Shown piece after piece: positions 48,129-57,570 of a DNA stretch of 64,000 nt. The stretch comes from Haloplanus rubicundus (GTDB lineage: Archaea; Halobacteriota; Halobacteria; Halobacteriales; Haloferacaceae): assembly GCF_003342675.1 (NCBI RefSeq), contig NZ_CP031148.1, positions 3,038,001 through 3,102,000 of the forward strand, read 5' to 3'. Positions within the stretch are counted from its first letter, which is position 1, and each line of letters opens with the position of its first letter. The position numbers were made by a program, and so were the translations under genes. Under the pieces are notes generated by a model, which saw only the letters and a program-made list of their open reading frames with translations, was not told the DNA's origin and ran no database searches.

Positions 48129-48746
48129 ATGCGCATTCTCGTCCCGTTCGAGGCGACCGATCCGAAGACGCGCCTCGACGGGGTGCTCGACGCCGACGAA
48201 CGCGAGGACGTGGCGCGGGCGATGCTCCGTGACGTCCTCGACGCCTGTCTCGACGCCGGCCACGACCCCGAAGTGATCGCCACGGCGCCGGTCGAGGTGG
48301 CCGACGCGCCGGTGACCGTCGACGACCGCCCGCTCTCCGCGGCGGTGAACGCTCGCCTCGGCGGGGCGGAACCGCTCGGCGTCGTCGTCGCGGACCTCGC
48401 GCTCGCGACGCCGAGGGCCGTCGACCGTCTCGTCGACGTCGCGGCCGACGCCGACGTCGCCATCGCGCCCGGACGGGGCGGCGGCACGAACGGGCTGGTG
48501 ATCGACCATCCGGACTTCCGCGTCGACTTCCACGGCGTCTCCTATCGCGACCACGTCGCCGCCGCCCGCGAGGTGGGTGCCGACATCGCCGTCGTCGACT
48601 CGATGCGCCTGTCGACCGACGTGGACGAACCGACCGACCTAGTGGAGGTCCTGCTCCACGGCGAGGGCGAGGCAGCGGCGTGGCTCGGGGCGCGGTTCGA
48701 ACTCGACGCGGGCGAGGGGCGGGTCGGTCTCGACCGCGTGGGGTGA
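48129..48746 (+). CDS. cofC: 2-phospho-L-lactate guanylyltransferase
   Basis: A 205-residue CofC, which activates 2-phospholactate (or a related phosphoacid) with GTP for F420 assembly. The opening MRILVPFEATDPKTRLDGVLDADER, the nucleotide-site ATPRAVDRLVD and the PGRGGGTNGLVI loop match the family. The TATA-like CTATCTATAC lies about 30 bases upstream. It precedes cofG by 32 bases, forming a biosynthetic pair. Confidence 0.94.
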   Translation: MRILVPFEATDPKTRLDGVLDADEREDVARAMLRDVLDACLDAGHDPEVIATAPVEVADAPVTVDDRPLSAAVNARLGGAEPLGVVVADLALATPRAVDRLVDVAADADVAIAPGRGGGTNGLVIDHPDFRVDFHGVSYRDHVAAAREVGADIAVVDSMRLSTDVDEPTDLVEVLLHGEGEAAAWLGARFELDAGEGRVGLDRVG

Positions 48747-48778
48747 GGTTTTTCCCCTTCCGGCGCGGAACCGGGGCC

Positions 48779-49915
48779 ATGCCACGGGCGCCGGAGGCGG
48801 ACGACGAGCGGGTCGCCCCCGAGACCCTCGTCGACGACGCCGCGGTCGACGCCCTCCTCGACGTGGCGCCCGACGACGTGGCGTCCGCTCCCGAACTCAC
48901 CTTCGCGCGGAACGTCTTTCTGCCCCTCACGACCGCCTGTCGGTACACCTGCACGTACTGTACGTTCTACGACGTCCCCGGCGAGGCGACGCTCATGCCC
49001 CCCGAGGCGGTCCGGGAGCAGCTGCGGGTGGGCGCCGACGCCGGCTGTACCGAGGCGCTCTTTACCTTCGGCGACGCGCCCGACGAGCGCTACACGGCCG
49101 TCCACGACCAGCTCGACGACTGGGGGTACGACGACGTGCTCGACTATCTCTACGACGCCTGCGAGATGGCGCTCGACGTCGGGCTGCTCCCCCACAGCAA
49201 TCCAGGTGACTTGCGGCGGGCGGAGCTGGTGCGACTGGCCGAGGTCAACGCCAGCATGGGCGTGATGCTGGAGACGACGGCGGACGTGAGCGCGCATTCG
49301 GGCGGCCGGCGGAAGACGCCCGAGCGCCGACTGGGGACGATTCGGGCGGCGGGCGAGGTGGGCGTTCCCTTCACCACCGGGATTCTGGTCGGCATCGGCG
49401 AGAATCGCCGGGACCGCGCGGAGAGCCTGCTGGCCATCCGCGCACTCCACGAGCGATACGACCACGTTCAGGAGGTGATCGTCCAGACCGTCGTCCCGAA
49501 CGAGCGCTCGGACTTCGAGCGCCCGAGCGTCGAGACGATGCGGGAGACGACGGCGATGGCGCGGGCGGCCCTGCCGCCGGAGGTATCGGTGCAGGTGCCG
49601 CCGAACCTCTCGCCGACTCGTGAGCTATTGGACTGCGGCGTCGACGACCTGGGCGGCGTCTCGCCGGTGACGGACGACTACATCAACCCCGACTACGCGT
49701 GGCCGGCGCTGGACGAACTCGAATCGCTCGCGTCCGAAGCGGGCGTCCCCCTCCGGGAACGTCTCCCGACCCACGAGCGGTACCTCCCCGCCGCGTTCCG
49801 GCGGGCGGACGTCGAGAGTACGCCGGGGACGTGGCTCCGGCCGAAGATTCGGGAGGCGCTCGACGCGGACGACGACGCGGGGCGGCGGTATCGCGCCGTC
49901 TCGGACGCATCGTAA
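48779..49915 (+). CDS. cofG: FO synthase subunit CofG
   Basis: A 378-residue radical SAM protein. The [4Fe-4S] motif is CRYTCTYCTF (CX3CX2C). With CofH it makes the 7,8-didemethyl-8-hydroxy-5-deazariboflavin chromophore of F420. TEALFTFGDAPDERY and PNERSDFERP are family landmarks. I begin at the ATG at 48779; the frame upstream reads through the end of cofC and is non-coding. The GTTTTTCCCC stretch is a likely TATA. Confidence 0.96.
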   Translation: MPRAPEADDERVAPETLVDDAAVDALLDVAPDDVASAPELTFARNVFLPLTTACRYTCTYCTFYDVPGEATLMPPEAVREQLRVGADAGCTEALFTFGDAPDERYTAVHDQLDDWGYDDVLDYLYDACEMALDVGLLPHSNPGDLRRAELVRLAEVNASMGVMLETTADVSAHSGGRRKTPERRLGTIRAAGEVGVPFTTGILVGIGENRRDRAESLLAIRALHERYDHVQEVIVQTVVPNERSDFERPSVETMRETTAMARAALPPEVSVQVPPNLSPTRELLDCGVDDLGGVSPVTDDYINPDYAWPALDELESLASEAGVPLRERLPTHERYLPAAFRRADVESTPGTWLRPKIREALDADDDAGRRYRAVSDAS

Positions 49916-50991: not shown

Positions 50992-52368
50992 TCAGTCGTC
51001 CGCCGCGGGAGAGGAGGGGAGCGACCGGTCGAGCATCGGCGTCCCGTCGGCGCGGGGGCCGAGTCGGGGACCGTAGGGGGCATCGTCGGGGTCGATGGGC
51101 CGGCGGCGCTCGTAGTCCGTCGACCGCTCGACCGGCCGACGGCCGATGGCGGTCACCATCTCCACGTAGTCGGCGACGGAGCGGAACTCGCCGTAGTCGC
51201 CGCCGGCGCGCTTGGTTATCTCCTCGGACAGCAGGGTCCCCATGAAGTCGTTGGCGCCACAGGAGAGCGTCTTCAGCGACTTCTCGTCGCCGAACTTCAC
51301 CCACGAGGTCTGGACGTTCTCGACGTTGTCGAGAAAGAGCCGGGAGACGGCGATCATGAGTTCGTCCTCGGCGTCGGTGGCGCCGCCCGAGACGAGGCCG
51401 CGGTCGTAGAGCGGCGTCCGCTGGTGGACGAAAGAGAGGGGGACGAACTCCGTAATGTTGCCAGTGCGGTCCTGCAGGTCGCGCACCCGCTTCAGGTGCA
51501 TGGCGCGGTGCATCTCGTTTTCGACGTGGCCGTACATGATCGTCGCGGTGACGGGGAGGCCGGCGGCCATCGCCCCCTCCATGGCGTCGAGCCACTCCGC
51601 CGTGTCCATCTTCCCCGGACAGATCACGTCGCGCACCTCGTCGACCAGAATCTCCGCGGCGGTGCCGGGTGCGCTGTCGAGGCCGGCCGAACGCAGGCGG
51701 CGGTACACCGCCTCGTAGGACCAGTCGGTGCCGCGGCGGGCGTGGTAGGCCTCCTCGGGGGTCACGGAGTGGACGTGGACGCCGTCGACGGACATGGCGC
51801 GGACCTGTTCGGCGTAGGTGCCCGGCGAGGTGGTGTACGCCTCGGGCGGGCGGTAGTTCAGGCGGCCCGGGTCCGCGGCCGATTCGAGCAGTTCGCGGTG
51901 GTCGGCGTCGAGGGCGAACGCGGGGTGGAGACCGCTGACCGAACACACCTCCGAGATGCCCAGTTCGACCGCGTCCTCGACCGCCCGGCGCGACTCGGCC
52001 GGCGTCTTGGTGAAGCCGCCGTGGTCGTCGGGGGCGTCGGCCTCGAACGCCGACGCGCGGTCCTTGAAGTTACAGAACAGACAGCCCGTGTCGCAGGCCG
52101 TCGTGACGTTGTTGTTGAGGTTGACGACGAACGTCACGTCGTCGCCGACGACGTCGGCGCGGCGGTGGTCGGCCGCCTCCAGCACCCGCTCCTTCCGGAC
52201 GGGGTCGATCCCCGCCCGATCCGTCCCGGTCGTCAGGAGTTCGACCCCGTCGTCGACGGTGAGACGGTGACCGTTCCGCGCCTTCGCGAGCGCGTTCTCG
52301 AACGACTGGTCGGTCTCGGGGACGTGCTCGAAATCGGGGTCCCCGACCGCCGCGTCGGCGTCACTCAT
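50992..52368 (-). CDS. cofH: FO synthase subunit CofH
   Basis: A 458-residue radical SAM protein, the second half of archaeal FO synthase; it joins the tyrosine-derived unit. The cluster motif is CDTGCLFCNF (CX3CX2C), followed by SEVCSVSGLHP and TATIMYGHVENEMHR. The N-terminal extension of about 40 residues is acidic. I start at the ATG at 52368, with TATA-like CTATTAGC on this strand about 30 bases upstream. It lies opposite the cofC/cofG pair rather than in one operon. Confidence 0.95.
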   Translation of the reverse strand: MSDADAAVGDPDFEHVPETDQSFENALAKARNGHRLTVDDGVELLTTGTDRAGIDPVRKERVLEAADHRRADVVGDDVTFVVNLNNNVTTACDTGCLFCNFKDRASAFEADAPDDHGGFTKTPAESRRAVEDAVELGISEVCSVSGLHPAFALDADHRELLESAADPGRLNYRPPEAYTTSPGTYAEQVRAMSVDGVHVHSVTPEEAYHARRGTDWSYEAVYRRLRSAGLDSAPGTAAEILVDEVRDVICPGKMDTAEWLDAMEGAMAAGLPVTATIMYGHVENEMHRAMHLKRVRDLQDRTGNITEFVPLSFVHQRTPLYDRGLVSGGATDAEDELMIAVSRLFLDNVENVQTSWVKFGDEKSLKTLSCGANDFMGTLLSEEITKRAGGDYGEFRSVADYVEMVTAIGRRPVERSTDYERRRPIDPDDAPYGPRLGPRADGTPMLDRSLPSSPAADD

Positions 52369-52461
52369 CGTGAAATCACAGACGCCCGAAGCTAATAGGG
52401 GTTGTCGTCGTCGAAGCCGCGTGTCAAAAGAACCATACCAATCGGTGCCGACGCCACGGAT

Positions 52462-53391
52462 ATGCACACGCGGGTCCCCCGACTGGTCGAGCGCGCCTAC
52501 GAGCGGCTTCTCCGGCGCGACATCGACGGCACCCCCGACCACGTCGCCGTCATTCAGGACGGCAACCGACGCTACGCCCGCGAACGCGGCGACGGCGCCG
52601 CCGACGGCCACCGGGAGGGTGCCCGGACCACCGAGCGGGTGCTCCGCTGGTGTCAGGAACTCGGCGTCGAGGAACTCACGCTCTATGCCTTCTCGACCGA
52701 GAACTTCGAGCGCCCGCCAGAGGAGCGCGACCACCTGTTCGACCTCATCGAGTCGAAGCTGCGGTCGTTCGCGGACAGGGAGGAGGTCCACGAGAACGAG
52801 GTGTGTATCCGCGCGCTCGGGGAGGTCGACCGCCTCCCCGAACGCGTCCGCGACGCCGTCGCGTACGCCGAGGAACGGACGGCGGGGTACGACCGCTTCC
52901 GCCTGAACGTCGCGCTGGCGTACGGCGGCCGGGCGGAGCTGCTCGGCGCCGCCCGCGAGACGCTACGGTCGGTCGCGGCCGGCAACCTCGATCCGGCGGA
53001 CGTGGACGCCGCCGAGATCGAGCGCCGGCTCTACGCCCGCCCCGTCCGCGACGTGGACCTCATCGTGCGGACGGGCGGCGACGAGCGGACGAGCAACTTC
53101 CTGCCGTGGCACGCCAACGGCAACGAGGCCGCCGTCTTCTTCTGTGCGCCGTACTGGCCCGAGTTCTCGAAGATCGACTTCCTGCGGGCGATCCGCACCT
53201 ACGAGTCCCGCGAGGCGTCGTGGCGGCACACCCGTCGGGAGCGGGCGGCGGCCCTGGTTCGGGCCGTCGCGGGCTCCTCACTCGTCGAGACGCGCGAGGT
53301 GATCGGTCGCCTGCGCGAGCAGCTCCCCCACGCCGGCACCGACGAACTGACGGCCGAACTCGACCGGCAGGACGCCGGGACGACGGAGTAG
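52462..53391 (+). CDS. uppS: cis-Prenyltransferase (undecaprenyl diphosphate synthase family), catalytic type
   Basis: A 309-residue UPPS/cis-prenyltransferase that builds the long polyprenyl diphosphate for glycosyl-carrier lipid. The catalytic Asp is Asp33 in VAVIQDGNRRYAR. LTLYAFSTENFERP and DLIVRTGGDERTSNFLPWHANGNEAAVFF are also intact. Unlike homodimeric bacterial enzymes the C-terminus does not end in the RRFG-type motif; it has TYESREASWRHTRRERA and a further 60-residue tail. See the Nus1-like gene at 56962, which has what this lacks. Confidence 0.93.
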   Translation: MHTRVPRLVERAYERLLRRDIDGTPDHVAVIQDGNRRYARERGDGAADGHREGARTTERVLRWCQELGVEELTLYAFSTENFERPPEERDHLFDLIESKLRSFADREEVHENEVCIRALGEVDRLPERVRDAVAYAEERTAGYDRFRLNVALAYGGRAELLGAARETLRSVAAGNLDPADVDAAEIERRLYARPVRDVDLIVRTGGDERTSNFLPWHANGNEAAVFFCAPYWPEFSKIDFLRAIRTYESREASWRHTRRERAAALVRAVAGSSLVETREVIGRLREQLPHAGTDELTAELDRQDAGTTE

Positions 53392-53437
53392 CCAGGCGAC
53401 GCCGAGGAGCTTTGTACCGTCCGACCGTGGCGTCGGT

Positions 53438-54367
53438 ATGCTCCAGGTCGCACTCCAGACGGCCACGCCGACGCCGGTGCCGACGCCGGTCGTCGGCCCG
53501 GAGGGCCTCGCCGCCTACTGGGCCCTCATCCGTCGGGCGGTGTGGTTCGTCGCCGGCTTCGTCGCCGTCGTCCTCGTCGGGTGGTTCGCGGTCGAACCGC
53601 TGGTCGCACGGTTCGTCCGCCGACGCAACAGCAACAACCCGACGATCCAGGAGGCGGTCTCGCGGTACGTCCGCCTGCTCGTCCTCGTCGTCGCCTTCTT
53701 CGTCGCCGCGGGCACCGCGGGCTACGGTCGGTTCATCGGCGATTCGGCGCTCGTCATCGCGGCCGGGACCCTCGCCGTCGGCGTCGCCGGGCAGACCGTC
53801 ATCGGCTCCATCGTCAGCGGCCTCGTCCTCGTCGTCGACCCCGAGTTCAACGTCGGCAACTACATCGAGTGGGCGGACCGCGAGGGGACCGTCCAGTCCA
53901 TCACGCTCCGGGTGACGCGGATCCTGACCCCGGACGGCGAACTCGTCACGGTACCGAACACGCTCCTGACGGGACAGGCGATCACCCGACCGTACGGTCG
54001 GGGGCGACGACGCATCGTCGAACACGTCGGCGTCGCCTACGAGGCGGACGTGGCGGCGGCGCTCGATCACCTGACGGCGGCGACGGAAGCCGTCGACGAC
54101 ATCGTAGCCGAGCCGACGCCGAAGGCGTACGTCGACGACTTCGGCTCCGATTCGGTGGTGCTCCGCGTCCACTACTGGATCGAGGACCCGCGTCGGCGGG
54201 ACATCTTCGCCGTCCGGTCGGCGTACGCCCGGGCGGCCAAGGAGCGACTGGAGGCGGCTGGGATCACGATCAGCCCGGCGTCGAAGCGGGAGCTTCAGGG
54301 CCGGATCGGCGTCGACGGCGCCGCCGACGGCACCGCCGGCGGTGAGACCGACGGCCGCGCCGACTAG
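53438..54367 (+). CDS. MscS-family mechanosensitive channel
   Basis: A 309-residue MscS-like channel with helices about 30-50, 73-90 and 95-115 and the pore-lining GTLAVGVAGQTVIGSIVSGLVLVVDPEFNVGNYIEW segment, then a cytoplasmic beta/vestibule domain with VTVPNTLLTGQAITRP. Gated by membrane tension, it would release solutes on hypo-osmotic shock. Its TAG stop shares CTAG with the stop of the convergent regulator. Confidence 0.94.
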   Translation: MLQVALQTATPTPVPTPVVGPEGLAAYWALIRRAVWFVAGFVAVVLVGWFAVEPLVARFVRRRNSNNPTIQEAVSRYVRLLVLVVAFFVAAGTAGYGRFIGDSALVIAAGTLAVGVAGQTVIGSIVSGLVLVVDPEFNVGNYIEWADREGTVQSITLRVTRILTPDGELVTVPNTLLTGQAITRPYGRGRRRIVEHVGVAYEADVAAALDHLTAATEAVDDIVAEPTPKAYVDDFGSDSVVLRVHYWIEDPRRRDIFAVRSAYARAAKERLEAAGITISPASKRELQGRIGVDGAADGTAGGETDGRAD

Positions 54368-55044
54368 TCGTCCCGGGCCACCGTCGCCAGCAGGAGCCGT
54401 TTCATTCCGCGCCGAAGCAGCCCGCCCGCCGCCGGCTGTGAGATGTCGAGTTCGGCCGCCACCGCCGCGAGCGTCGCCTCGCGTGGTTCCTCGAAGTAGC
54501 CCGCGTCGAGGGCGGTGAGGAGCGCCTCGCGCTGGGCGGCGGTGAGGTCGACCGCCCCCTCGACCGGGCCGGCGTAGTCGTTGACGCGCCGGAGGTCGAT
54601 ATCGACGTCGTGGGCATCGGCAAAGGCAAAGAGGCGAGCCAGTCGGTCGCGGTCGGGGAGCCAGACGGTCATCGTCCAGCCCGTCCCGTCGTTCTCGATG
54701 TCGAGGGCGAGACCGTTCGCCCGCGTGATCTCCGGCGAGAAGAGGATGGCCCGGTCCGTGTAGGCGACGCGGTAGAGCCGTCCCTCGTCGAACGCGGTGA
54801 CGGGATCGAACTCGGCGACGGTCGGGTCGGCGGAAAGCGCCGCGTCGAAGCGCTCGAACGAGTCCGACCGGACAACGAAGTGGTGGTGGCCGGATTCGGC
54901 GTCGGTGCCCGCCTCGCGGACGGGATGGATCGTCGCGCTCCGGTCGCGCGCCGCCGTCTCGGTCAGCGCGAGATCGGGGTGTTCGACGCCGAGGACGGCC
55001 GTCAGCCCGCTCCCGCTTCCGCTTTCGCTTTCGGGGTCGCTCAT
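54364..55044 (-). CDS. HTH_10 (bacterio-opsin-activator type) transcriptional regulator
   Basis: A 226-residue regulator. The N-terminal 160 residues are a sensory BAT-like domain and the C-terminus is the HTH_10 domain: LTAAQREALLTALDAGYFEEPREATLAAVAAELDISQPAAGGLLRRGMKRLL. These control carotenoid, retinal, phosphate and other genes in haloarchaea. It overlaps the EamA transporter gene by four bases and is probably its autoregulator or partner. Confidence 0.9.
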   Translation of the reverse strand: MSDPESESGSGSGLTAVLGVEHPDLALTETAARDRSATIHPVREAGTDAESGHHHFVVRSDSFERFDAALSADPTVAEFDPVTAFDEGRLYRVAYTDRAILFSPEITRANGLALDIENDGTGWTMTVWLPDRDRLARLFAFADAHDVDIDLRRVNDYAGPVEGAVDLTAAQREALLTALDAGYFEEPREATLAAVAAELDISQPAAGGLLRRGMKRLLLATVARDD

Positions 55045-55991
55045 CCGCCGGGACCCTCCGTCCGCTGCGGACCGACGCGACGGAGTCGGTCGGTCACGGC
55101 GCGTTCGACCGCCGGCGACGCGAGGACGACGCTCGCGAGGATGGCCGCGCCGCCGGCGGCGACGGCCGGCGTGAACGGTTCGTCGAGGAGCGCCACCCCG
55201 AGGACGACGGTGGTCAGCGGTTCGCTCGTACTGACGATGCTGGCGGTGCTCGCGGGGATGCGCGCCAATCCGGCGGTGAAGAGGATCATGGGCAGGAGCG
55301 TCCCGACGACGGTGATGCCGGCGATCAGGCGCCAGTGTGCTGGCGTCGCCGGCGCCGAGAGCGTGCCGGTCACGACCCCGTACAGCAGGACGGCGGCCGT
55401 CACGCCGAGGAAGACGTAGGCGGCGTGCACCAGCGGCGACACCGTCCGAACCGCGACGCGCGAGCCGACCGAGTAGACGGTGTACGCGAGCGACGCGACG
55501 CCGACGAGGACGAGTCCCGGGAGGCCGAAAGCCGTCCCGCCGCCCGCGACGAGGGCGACGCCGCCGAGGGCTGTACACAGGGCGAGCGCCTTCGGCGCCG
55601 TCACCGGTTCGTCGAGGGCGAGCGCCGAGACGAGCGTCACCTGTACCGGGTAGGTGAAGAGGACGAGCGTCGCGACACCCGCCGAGAGCCACGCCAGACT
55701 CTCGAAGTACGCGACCGACATGAGGCCGTACACCAGCCCGAGACCGAGTTCGGCGACGAGGGTCCGGCGGCCGAGTCGGATCGGCACGCCGCGGCGGACG
55801 AGATACGCCCAGAGAATCGCGCTGGCGGCGAGAAAGCGAGCGGCGAGAAGCGTCGCCGTCGACAGCTCGGCGGCGCGGGCGAGTTCGCCGAAGACCCCGA
55901 GCGTCCCGAACAGCGCCGCCCCGGCGACGACGAGGGCGACGCCGGTGCCCGTCTCCGCCTCGGACTCGACGTCGGCGCGCCCGCGGTCCAT
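55041..55991 (-). CDS. EamA/DMT-family transporter
   Basis: A 316-residue drug/metabolite transporter with ten hydrophobic helices in two EamA repeats; GTLGVFGELARAAELSTATLLAARFLAASAILWAYL and PAVAAGGAAILASVVLASPA are recognisable. Export of an amino acid or related metabolite is typical but the substrate is unknown. Start at the ATG at 55991. Four-base overlap with the regulator gene downstream. Confidence 0.9.
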   Translation of the reverse strand: MDRGRADVESEAETGTGVALVVAGAALFGTLGVFGELARAAELSTATLLAARFLAASAILWAYLVRRGVPIRLGRRTLVAELGLGLVYGLMSVAYFESLAWLSAGVATLVLFTYPVQVTLVSALALDEPVTAPKALALCTALGGVALVAGGGTAFGLPGLVLVGVASLAYTVYSVGSRVAVRTVSPLVHAAYVFLGVTAAVLLYGVVTGTLSAPATPAHWRLIAGITVVGTLLPMILFTAGLARIPASTASIVSTSEPLTTVVLGVALLDEPFTPAVAAGGAAILASVVLASPAVERAVTDRLRRVGPQRTEGPGG

Positions 55992-56136
55992 ACGTCCTCC
56001 GAGTGGCTCCCGGGACAACTACCTGCCGGATATGAGTATAAGCCCTTTAAGTGTCGACGGGAATCGTCGGCGAGCGAGGCCGGGAGACAACTCGACTGAA
56101 TTCGGGTTTATTCGCCCCGAAGGGTTTCACCCCCTT

Positions 56137-56832
56137 ATGTGTGAGCGGCCGGTGGGGTGGGACGTGACCGAACGCGACCACGAGTCGGCGACTGCAACGC
56201 GACGCGACTATCTGCGAGTGACGGGCGGCCTCGCCGCCGCCGGCGTCGCCGGACTGGCGGGCTGTATGGGCGGCGCCGAGGCGACGACCGGCACGCTCGC
56301 GACGCGGGTGAGCGACCAGCCCGGCGACATCTCGGATTTCGAAACCTGCGTCGTCACCATGGCGGGGTTCTGGGTGGCGCCGGAATCGGACGGCGACGCG
56401 ACCGCCACGTCGACGGAGACCGAGACCGAGACGTCGTCGGACGGCGAGGACGAGGACACGGACCGCGAGTATCACGAGTTCGAGGAGCCACGGGAGGCCG
56501 ACCTCGTGGAGCTACAGGGCGACCGGTCGGCGCTTCTCGGCGAACAGGAACTGGAGACGGGGACGTACGCGTACCTCCAACTCGACGTGACGGGCGTCGG
56601 CGCCACGCTCGCGGACGGCGGCGAGGCGACGGTGGAGACGCCCGGCGAGGCGCCGCTCAAGTTCAACCAGTCCTTCGAGATTCGGGCGGACGAGCGGACG
56701 GTGTTCACCGCCGACTTCACGCCGGTTCGGCGGGGACGGAGCGGGTCGTACCTCCTCCAGCCGGTCGCCAGCGAGACGAGCGTGCGGTACGAGTCGACGG
56801 CCACGTCGACGGCGACGGAAACGAGCGGATAG
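56137..56832 (+). CDS. DUF4382-type Tat lipoprotein
   Basis: A 231-residue lipoprotein: ATRRDYLRVTGGLAAAG twin-arginine motif with lipobox LAGC, then ATTGTLATRVSDQPGDISDFETCVVTMAGFWVAP, typical of DUF4382. A Thr/Glu-rich, low-complexity linker (about residues 85-112) follows. Function unknown. The TATA-like GTTTATTC near 56105 favours the ATG at 56137; a GTG at 56164 is an alternative. Confidence 0.8.
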   Translation: MCERPVGWDVTERDHESATATRRDYLRVTGGLAAAGVAGLAGCMGGAEATTGTLATRVSDQPGDISDFETCVVTMAGFWVAPESDGDATATSTETETETSSDGEDEDTDREYHEFEEPREADLVELQGDRSALLGEQELETGTYAYLQLDVTGVGATLADGGEATVETPGEAPLKFNQSFEIRADERTVFTADFTPVRRGRSGSYLLQPVASETSVRYESTATSTATETSG

Positions 56833-56846
56833 GCGTTCACGGCGCG

Positions 56847-56864
56847 ATTCGGCCTATCGACCGA
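56847..56864. repeat. 18-bp direct repeat, copy 1
   Basis: ATTCGGCCTATCGACCGA matches 56955-56972 with one mismatch. The second copy crosses the stop codon of the convergent prenyltransferase-like gene, so this is a stray copy of that gene's end. It resembles the arrangement seen at the end of ilvD. Confidence 0.8.
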
Positions 56865-56901
56865 CCTTCCGTGGGACTCGCTGACGCTCGTTCCGCGGCG
56901 C

Positions 56902-56931
56902 TTGGACGCTTCGCTACCGCTCAGCGTCCAA
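56902..56931. terminator. 9-bp-stem hairpin between convergent genes
   Basis: TTGGACGCT (56902-56910) pairs with AGCGTCCAA (56923-56931) over a 12-base loop. It lies in the convergent gap between a lipoprotein gene and a prenyltransferase-like gene, a plausible bidirectional 3'-end structure. Confidence 0.55.
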
Positions 56932-56954
56932 ACTACCGTCGGCAAACCGACGTA

Positions 56955-56972
56955 ATTCGGTCTATCGACCGA
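56955..56972. repeat. 18-bp direct repeat, copy 2 (also a palindrome)
   Basis: ATTCGGTCTATCGACCGA, extended by two bases, forms ATTCGGT-CTATCG-ACCGAAT, a 7-bp-arm palindrome spanning the stop codon of the prenyltransferase-like gene. The copy at 56847 differs by one base. Confidence 0.8.
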
Positions 56973-57570
56973 ATCGCCGCTGCCGGTTCTGGTAATCCAG
57001 CACCGCGCGGAGGTAGTCCCGCTTGCGCACGTCCCGCCAGTTCACGTCGGTGAAGTAGAGCTCGGAGTAGACGGACTGCCAGATCATGAAATCGGAGAGC
57101 CGTTCGGCGCCGGTCTTGATCAGGAGGTCGGGCTCGTCGGGGAAGACGAGGCGACGCTCCACGTCGGCCTCGTCGACGTCCGCGGGGTCGAGTTCCCCGG
57201 CGTCGACCTCCTCGGCGAGCGAGCGGACGGCGGCGGCGAACTCGCCTTTCCCACCGAGTCCGACGTTCACCTGCACGGGTGCCGTGACGGGTTCGGTGTC
57301 GTCGGGGTCGCGGACGGCGACGGGGCGAGGAGCGTCGATGTCCCGCAGTTCGCGTGTCAGCGTCGGTACCACCGCCTCGTCGAGGACGCTCACCGAGACG
57401 GTGGCGCGCTCGGCGCCGTAGTCGAAGACCCACGCGAGGACGCGTTCGAGGCGGTCGTACGCCCCCTGTTCCAGCAGGTCCCGCTCGGTGAGGACGAGGG
57501 CGACGTGCGCTGGCGGGTCGCCGGGATGGAGACGCTGTCTGAGCGCGAGATAGCGGTCGTACAGGCCCAC
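56962..57570 (-). CDS. Nus1/NgBR-like cis-prenyltransferase paralogue (non-catalytic type)
   Basis: A 202-residue member of the UPPS family. The C-terminal half keeps DLLIKTGAERLSDFMIWQSVYSELYF and ends YQNRQRRFGR, with an RxG motif at 199-201. The N-terminal catalytic segment is lost: where the canonical enzyme has HVAVIQDGNRR this one has HVALVLTERD, so the essential Asp is replaced by Thr28. That pattern matches the Nus1/NgBR regulatory subunit of heteromeric cis-prenyltransferases. Its partner would be the gene at 52462. The divergent DUF92 gene strengthens the polyprenol theme. Confidence 0.84.
   Translation of the reverse strand: MGLYDRYLALRQRLHPGDPPAHVALVLTERDLLEQGAYDRLERVLAWVFDYGAERATVSVSVLDEAVVPTLTRELRDIDAPRPVAVRDPDDTEPVTAPVQVNVGLGGKGEFAAAVRSLAEEVDAGELDPADVDEADVERRLVFPDEPDLLIKTGAERLSDFMIWQSVYSELYFTDVNWRDVRKRDYLRAVLDYQNRQRRFGR

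Follow-up and report, generated by a model that had tools for sequence, protein, structure and literature searches.

A convergent gene pair of Haloplanus rubicundus that very probably encodes a heteromeric cis-prenyltransferase

In cis-prenyltransferases (CPTs), the RxG motif extends from its own subunit into the partner's active site. There it contacts Mg2+ and the diphosphate of isopentenyl diphosphate (IPP) (PMC8131916). The closest described archaeal systems are those of Methanosarcina mazei, in which the products of MM_0618 and MM_1083 are reported to form a heteromeric CPT that makes C45-50 chains and coexists with the C25-40 enzyme MM_0014 (PMC8131916). MM_0014 lacks an RxG motif and is still active as a homodimer, giving C25-40 and irregular products (PMC8131916). 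In haloarchaea, C60 dolichyl phosphate has been reported from Haloferax volcanii (PMC10821996); no experimental study of a haloarchaeal CPT protein was found in a literature search that left most subscription journals outside its reach. The present analysis concerns two genes of Haloplanus rubicundus located at 52462-53391 and 56962-57570 of a 64,000-nucleotide stretch of contig NZ_CP031148.1 (positions 3,038,001 to 3,102,000; hereafter the window, in whose coordinates all features are given). The two genes very probably encode the subunits of a heteromeric CPT that acts as the haloarchaeal dolichol-chain synthase and works like the eukaryotic pair DHDDS/NgBR. A first-pass annotation of the window had pointed to a heteromeric archaeal enzyme reported in Methanosarcina, and PMC8131916 confirms this. 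Our results support the assignment of the haloarchaeal pair to this already known kind of heteromeric CPT. What is added here is the strictness of the arrangement throughout the phylum and the conserved convergent gene pair, of which no earlier report was found.

Two proteins with complementary active-site elements

Translation of the gene at 52462-53391 (plus strand) gives an uppS-like, catalytic-type subunit of 309 amino acids that has Asp33 of the DGNRR motif within VAVIQDGNRRYAR and all catalytic residues. Its C-terminal extension ends in AELDRQDAGTTE and lacks RxG. The protein matches PF01255 over nearly the whole profile (positions 1-216 of 219, E 7.5e-69). The gene at 56962-57570 is an open frame on the minus strand with a GTG start, and its 202-residue product is the putative accessory subunit, NgBR/Nus1-like in anatomy: Thr28 stands at the position of the Asp, in VALVLTERDLLEQG (...VALVLTERDLL...), tunnel residues are missing, and the C-terminus, RQRRFGR, contains the RRFG element. 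Here PF01255 matches the C-terminal half only (positions 115-219, E 9.1e-25). The motifs that the first-pass annotation had assigned to the two genes, Asp33 in DGNRR without a C-terminal RRFG in the first and Thr28 with an RRFGR ending in the second, were reproduced by translation, to which should be added the minus-strand orientation of the second frame, left unstated there. A search of the whole genome with PF01255 returned these two genes and no third. On reading the N-terminus of the 202-residue protein, MGLYDRYLALRQRLHPGDPPAHVAL, no long hydrophobic segment of the kind expected of a membrane anchor was seen, and the first helix of its structural model spans residues 3-14 only.

Single-chain AlphaFold2 models were obtained for both proteins. 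The catalytic model (46 sequences, mean predicted local distance difference test score (pLDDT) 81.6) shows three helices in its C-terminal part (237-270, 274-287 and 290-305; pLDDT near 60 for the second and third), and the top match in a fold comparison was DHDDS (7pb1_A, Z 27.3, root-mean-square deviation (rmsd) 2.8 over 250 residues), with bacterial CPTs tied. The accessory model, built from 64 sequences with a mean pLDDT of 83.8, shows the CPT fold with a shortened tunnel region; human NgBR chains ranked first (7pax_B, Z 13.0, rmsd 4.8, 180 residues), with DHDDS and bacterial CPTs within 1 Z. A phmmer search with the accessory protein gave no NgBR match at E<=1. The predicted structures thus support membership of the CPT family and the anatomy of both proteins, rather than any specific kinship.

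Since the catalytic chain has no RxG and its helper has neither an allylic site nor a tunnel, each pair of chains in a heteromer would form a single complete active site. In the 309-residue subunit, the Asp33/DGNRR loop would bind the allylic diphosphate, and the same chain would contain the elongation tunnel. The 202-residue subunit, which no longer has an allylic site or tunnel of its own, would dimerise by the interface typical of CPTs and insert its C-terminal R-F-G into the active site of its partner, where the motif would contact Mg2+ and the diphosphate of IPP. Such a complex could form a cis-polyprenyl diphosphate of C55-60, later reduced to the dolichyl phosphate carrier used in glycosylation. 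In this mechanism we infer binding, the reach of the RxG across the interface, the stoichiometry, the product and the physiological role; formation of a complex by the two proteins is probable from the indirect support of linkage and orthology described below. One of the two genes that match the UppS family is almost certainly inactive alone.

The motif split across Halobacteriota

An alignment of E. coli UppS with 164 different accessory-type and 101 different catalytic-type proteins drawn from haloarchaea and other families of the phylum Halobacteriota was read column by column in E. coli numbering. RxG was scored at its exact alignment column; a regular-expression count over the last eight residues was dropped, as it gave false matches in the variable catalytic tails. 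All 101 catalytic proteins keep D26, G27, N28, R30, S71, N74, R77, R194, R200 and S202, and none has R242 together with G244. Position 242 is Ser in every haloarchaeal catalytic protein (53/53), and no conserved substitute for RxG was found in the catalytic C-terminus across the 101 aligned proteins; one catalytic family (L179) has an RAG displaced by one residue. The accessory proteins are the mirror image: the terminal R241-R/K242-x-G244 is present in 164/164 (137 RRFG, 24 RRYG, 2 RKFG and 1 RRRG), and DGNxR in 0/164. At position 26 of the accessory chains, all 79 haloarchaeal members have Thr, and most of the remainder have Ser, Thr, Ala or Lys; the columns of H43, N74 and R77 are empty in all 79 haloarchaeal members. 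Each chain retains what the other has lost, phylum-wide. Chance does not account for the split: the residues fall in the same alignment columns throughout the 164 accessory and the 101 catalytic proteins.

Two further features of the accessory alignment were recorded. An Asp occurs at the catalytic column in 16 of the 85 non-haloarchaeal accessory proteins (among them L157, L209, L215, L218-L222, L224, L229, L230 and L241), mostly as DE(T/S)DLL and never with GNxR. The helper residues R157, S159, E170, R196 and R198 are also conserved, with equivalents of E. coli E213, R239 and R241 in 164/164 and those of R200 and S202 in haloarchaea; the helper keeps these equivalents despite having no allylic site.

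A direct search with the paralogue itself found the accessory protein in 59/59 haloarchaeal genomes, so that the co-occurrence survey proposed in the first-pass annotation came out in its favour and the absence from related species, which it had named as the outcome that would speak against it, was not seen. All 391 sampled haloarchaeal genomes contain a CPT, and among those listed all but one have at least two matches; the lone exception (G072, in 120 contigs) has a single match with an E-value typical of the accessory type. Of 197 genomes of the phylum, 195 are matched by the accessory profile (A1), and in most of them the profile also picks up the catalytic gene. The two genomes without a match are drafts from a single family; a search of one of these, G397, gave no CPT match of any type. 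Both CPT types are likewise present in about twenty other families of the phylum, represented by one genome each. This conservation bears on one alternative, in which the short paralogue would be a functionless gene copy in decay. Loss of the Asp and of the tunnel residues is what decay would produce, but the idea is contradicted by the phylum-wide retention of the protein, by its 63-78% identity to most haloarchaeal orthologues and by many invariant residues that include RRFG, and we give it practically no credence.

Variation in copy number and form was seen at a few places. A few genomes (G195, G226 and G408) have four CPT matches each, including additional catalytic-type copies. The most divergent accessory protein (L168; G399 and G407, family f20), a frame of 164 amino acids on a very long branch, still ends RRFGA. 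The accessory gene L206 (G533:C1:2055464-2056111) of a Methanosarcina-type genome of family f13 contains a single in-frame TAG, which may be read as pyrrolysine or mark a broken gene.

Orthology, gene order and alternative readings

A tree of 80 proteins (LG+C20, 264 columns; its root a drawing choice, and NgBR not included) places the accessory proteins in one clade (99/100) and the catalytic proteins in another (97/82), with similar internal family groupings in the two halves. Separate from both is a third archaeal CPT type, which ends ITLGG. Human DHDDS is not placed within the archaeal catalytic clade, and bacterial UppS branches in another part of the tree. Proteins of the Methanosarcina-type genomes G488 and G500 lie inside both the accessory and the catalytic clades that hold the window's proteins. 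The ITLGG-type protein of G500 aligns over 223 residues with 7vq9, titled MA1831 of Methanosarcina acetivorans, at 452 bits, and scores 441 bits against MM_0014 (7caq), and G500 is therefore Methanosarcina or a close relative. Of its remaining two CPTs, the first has DGNRR but lacks RxG, and the second lacks DGNRR and ends RRYGR; as the third is of the MM_0014 type, these two would by exclusion be the counterparts of MM_0618 and MM_1083. On this sequence evidence the window's pair is orthologous to the Methanosarcina-type pair, which would link it to the CHARACTERISED enzyme, identity with the M. mazei genes resting on exclusion.

The example of MM_0014 means that absence of RxG is no proof of dependence on a partner, and suggests an alternative in which the catalytic subunit is a working RxG-less homodimer, active as MM_0014 is (PMC8131916), while the short paralogue does something else, for instance as a regulator or a carrier-binding protein. 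However, the helper retains in 164/164 exactly the element that the catalytic chain has lost, the two genes occur together almost everywhere and lie close to each other, the Methanosarcina counterparts are reported as a heteromer (PMC8131916), and proteins of the MM_0014 type make up a clade apart, marked by an ITLGG ending, so that we regard this account as very improbable. In a second alternative, a catalytic homodimer and a heteromer would both form and make different chain lengths, the helper tuning length or rate without being required. CPTs of one species can indeed differ in product length, as MM_0014 (C25-40) and MM_0618/MM_1083 (C45-50) do in M. mazei (PMC8131916), yet most haloarchaea carry just these two CPT genes, and the lack of a conserved RxG substitute in the catalytic C-terminus also speaks against it; we consider it improbable. 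The heteromer proposed in the first-pass annotation is supported by the strict motif split, the co-occurrence and the orthology to the Methanosarcina-type proteins; the two proteins would bind each other, and the product would be the dolichol precursor.

Gene order points to the same pairing. In the window the two CPT genes lie tail to tail with their stop codons about 3.6 kb apart, and genes for an MscS channel and an EamA transporter, among others, stand between them. Both genes are found within 10 kb of each other in 45 of 59 haloarchaeal genomes, convergent in 45/45, and among 58 named haloarchaeal loci with both genes all are convergent and half have them less than about 190 bases apart. 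Of 60 regions fetched from outside the haloarchaea, 21 contain both genes, which are convergent in 20 and overlap at their ends in several; in the f13 (Methanosarcina-type) genomes examined the catalytic and accessory genes are not adjacent. Persistence of the convergent pair throughout the phylum is unlikely without a functional link, though this is not a co-transcribed operon.

Several observations weigh against a heteromer. Given the behaviour of MM_0014, the catalytic chain might keep some activity alone. In the monomer model the accessory C-terminus with its RxG tail (pLDDT under 50) and residues 157-170 are of low confidence. Of the 59 haloarchaeal genomes, 10 have the two genes on a single contig at a distance of over 10 kb, and another 4 have them on separate contigs. 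Rate covariation of the catalytic/accessory pair over 55 haloarchaeal sequence sets (partial correlation 0.28) was not above the controls (catalytic/DnaG 0.26, accessory/DUF92 0.47), a comparison that makes this measure uninformative for the pair.

The tree is consistent with a single origin of each subunit type within the phylum and says little on older events, because the branch of the accessory sequence L168 is very long and the root was placed for drawing only. We offer tentatively, at somewhat less than even chances, the idea that the split was ancestral to the whole of Halobacteriota, was carried on a convergent gene pair and arose independently of the DHDDS/NgBR split, the division of labour having evolved twice. 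If this is true, the helper's R200/S202/E213 equivalents would have kept a phosphate-related or structural role that was lost in NgBR.

Other neighbours may be of interest. The gene of a DUF92 membrane protein (PF01940; 57678-58991, plus strand) is the divergent neighbour of the accessory gene; of 69 haloarchaeal loci 57 carry it, 54 of them in divergent orientation to the accessory gene, and among non-haloarchaeal loci it is near the accessory gene in 15 of 60. Its product is a possible functional partner outside the enzyme itself. The DUF92 family includes plant VTE6, a phytyl-phosphate kinase, and by this kinship a prenyl-phosphate kinase next to the CPT helper is a lead. Beside the catalytic gene are genes for CofH (50992-52791, minus strand) and CofG (48680-49915, plus strand), both of the synthesis of the F420 precursor FO; a CofH relative occurs in the fetched stretch at 29 of 69 haloarchaeal loci.

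Comparison with known systems

If the two proteins form a heteromer, the chain-forming step of haloarchaeal dolichol synthesis would be a two-gene step, and expression of a single gene may fail. The pair would also offer a natural model, without a membrane anchor, of the DHDDS/NgBR arrangement, in which human disease mutations occur, and a clear example from prokaryotes for the question of how often homodimeric enzymes split into catalytic and helper chains.

Bacterial homodimeric UppS shares the Pfam family and the fold with the window's proteins, but it has the Asp and the RxG in one chain (D26 and R242-F-G244 in E. coli), which neither of them does. MM_0014/MA1831 resembles the catalytic chain in being an archaeal CPT without RxG, and differs in belonging to a separate clade with an ITLGG ending and in acting as a homodimer with C25-40 and irregular products (PMC8131916). 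DHDDS/NgBR, like Rer2/Nus1 and CPT/CPTL, places the Asp and the tunnel in one subunit and the RxG in the other. The first-pass annotation held that the haloarchaeal proteins divide these elements exactly in that way; the division of labour does hold, whereas the tree gives no support for a specific kinship of the catalytic chain with DHDDS, and the helper has no membrane anchor. The catalytic chain shares with DHDDS a C-terminal helical extension and a top-ranked fold match, although DHDDS is not inside the archaeal catalytic clade. The helper's fold likewise ranks first with NgBR, but is tied within 1 Z with other CPTs, and unlike NgBR it lacks the N-terminal membrane anchor and keeps the R200/S202/E213 equivalents. 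MM_0618/MM_1083, the counterpart pair by tree and exclusion, comes from the same phylum, and Methanosarcina-type genomes have both an RxG-less catalytic chain and a DGNxR-less chain with RRYG. The genes are unlinked in the Methanosarcina-type genomes examined, whereas they are adjacent and convergent in most haloarchaea, and the carriers reported from haloarchaea are longer, C60 in Haloferax volcanii (PMC10821996) against the C45-50 reported for the M. mazei enzyme.

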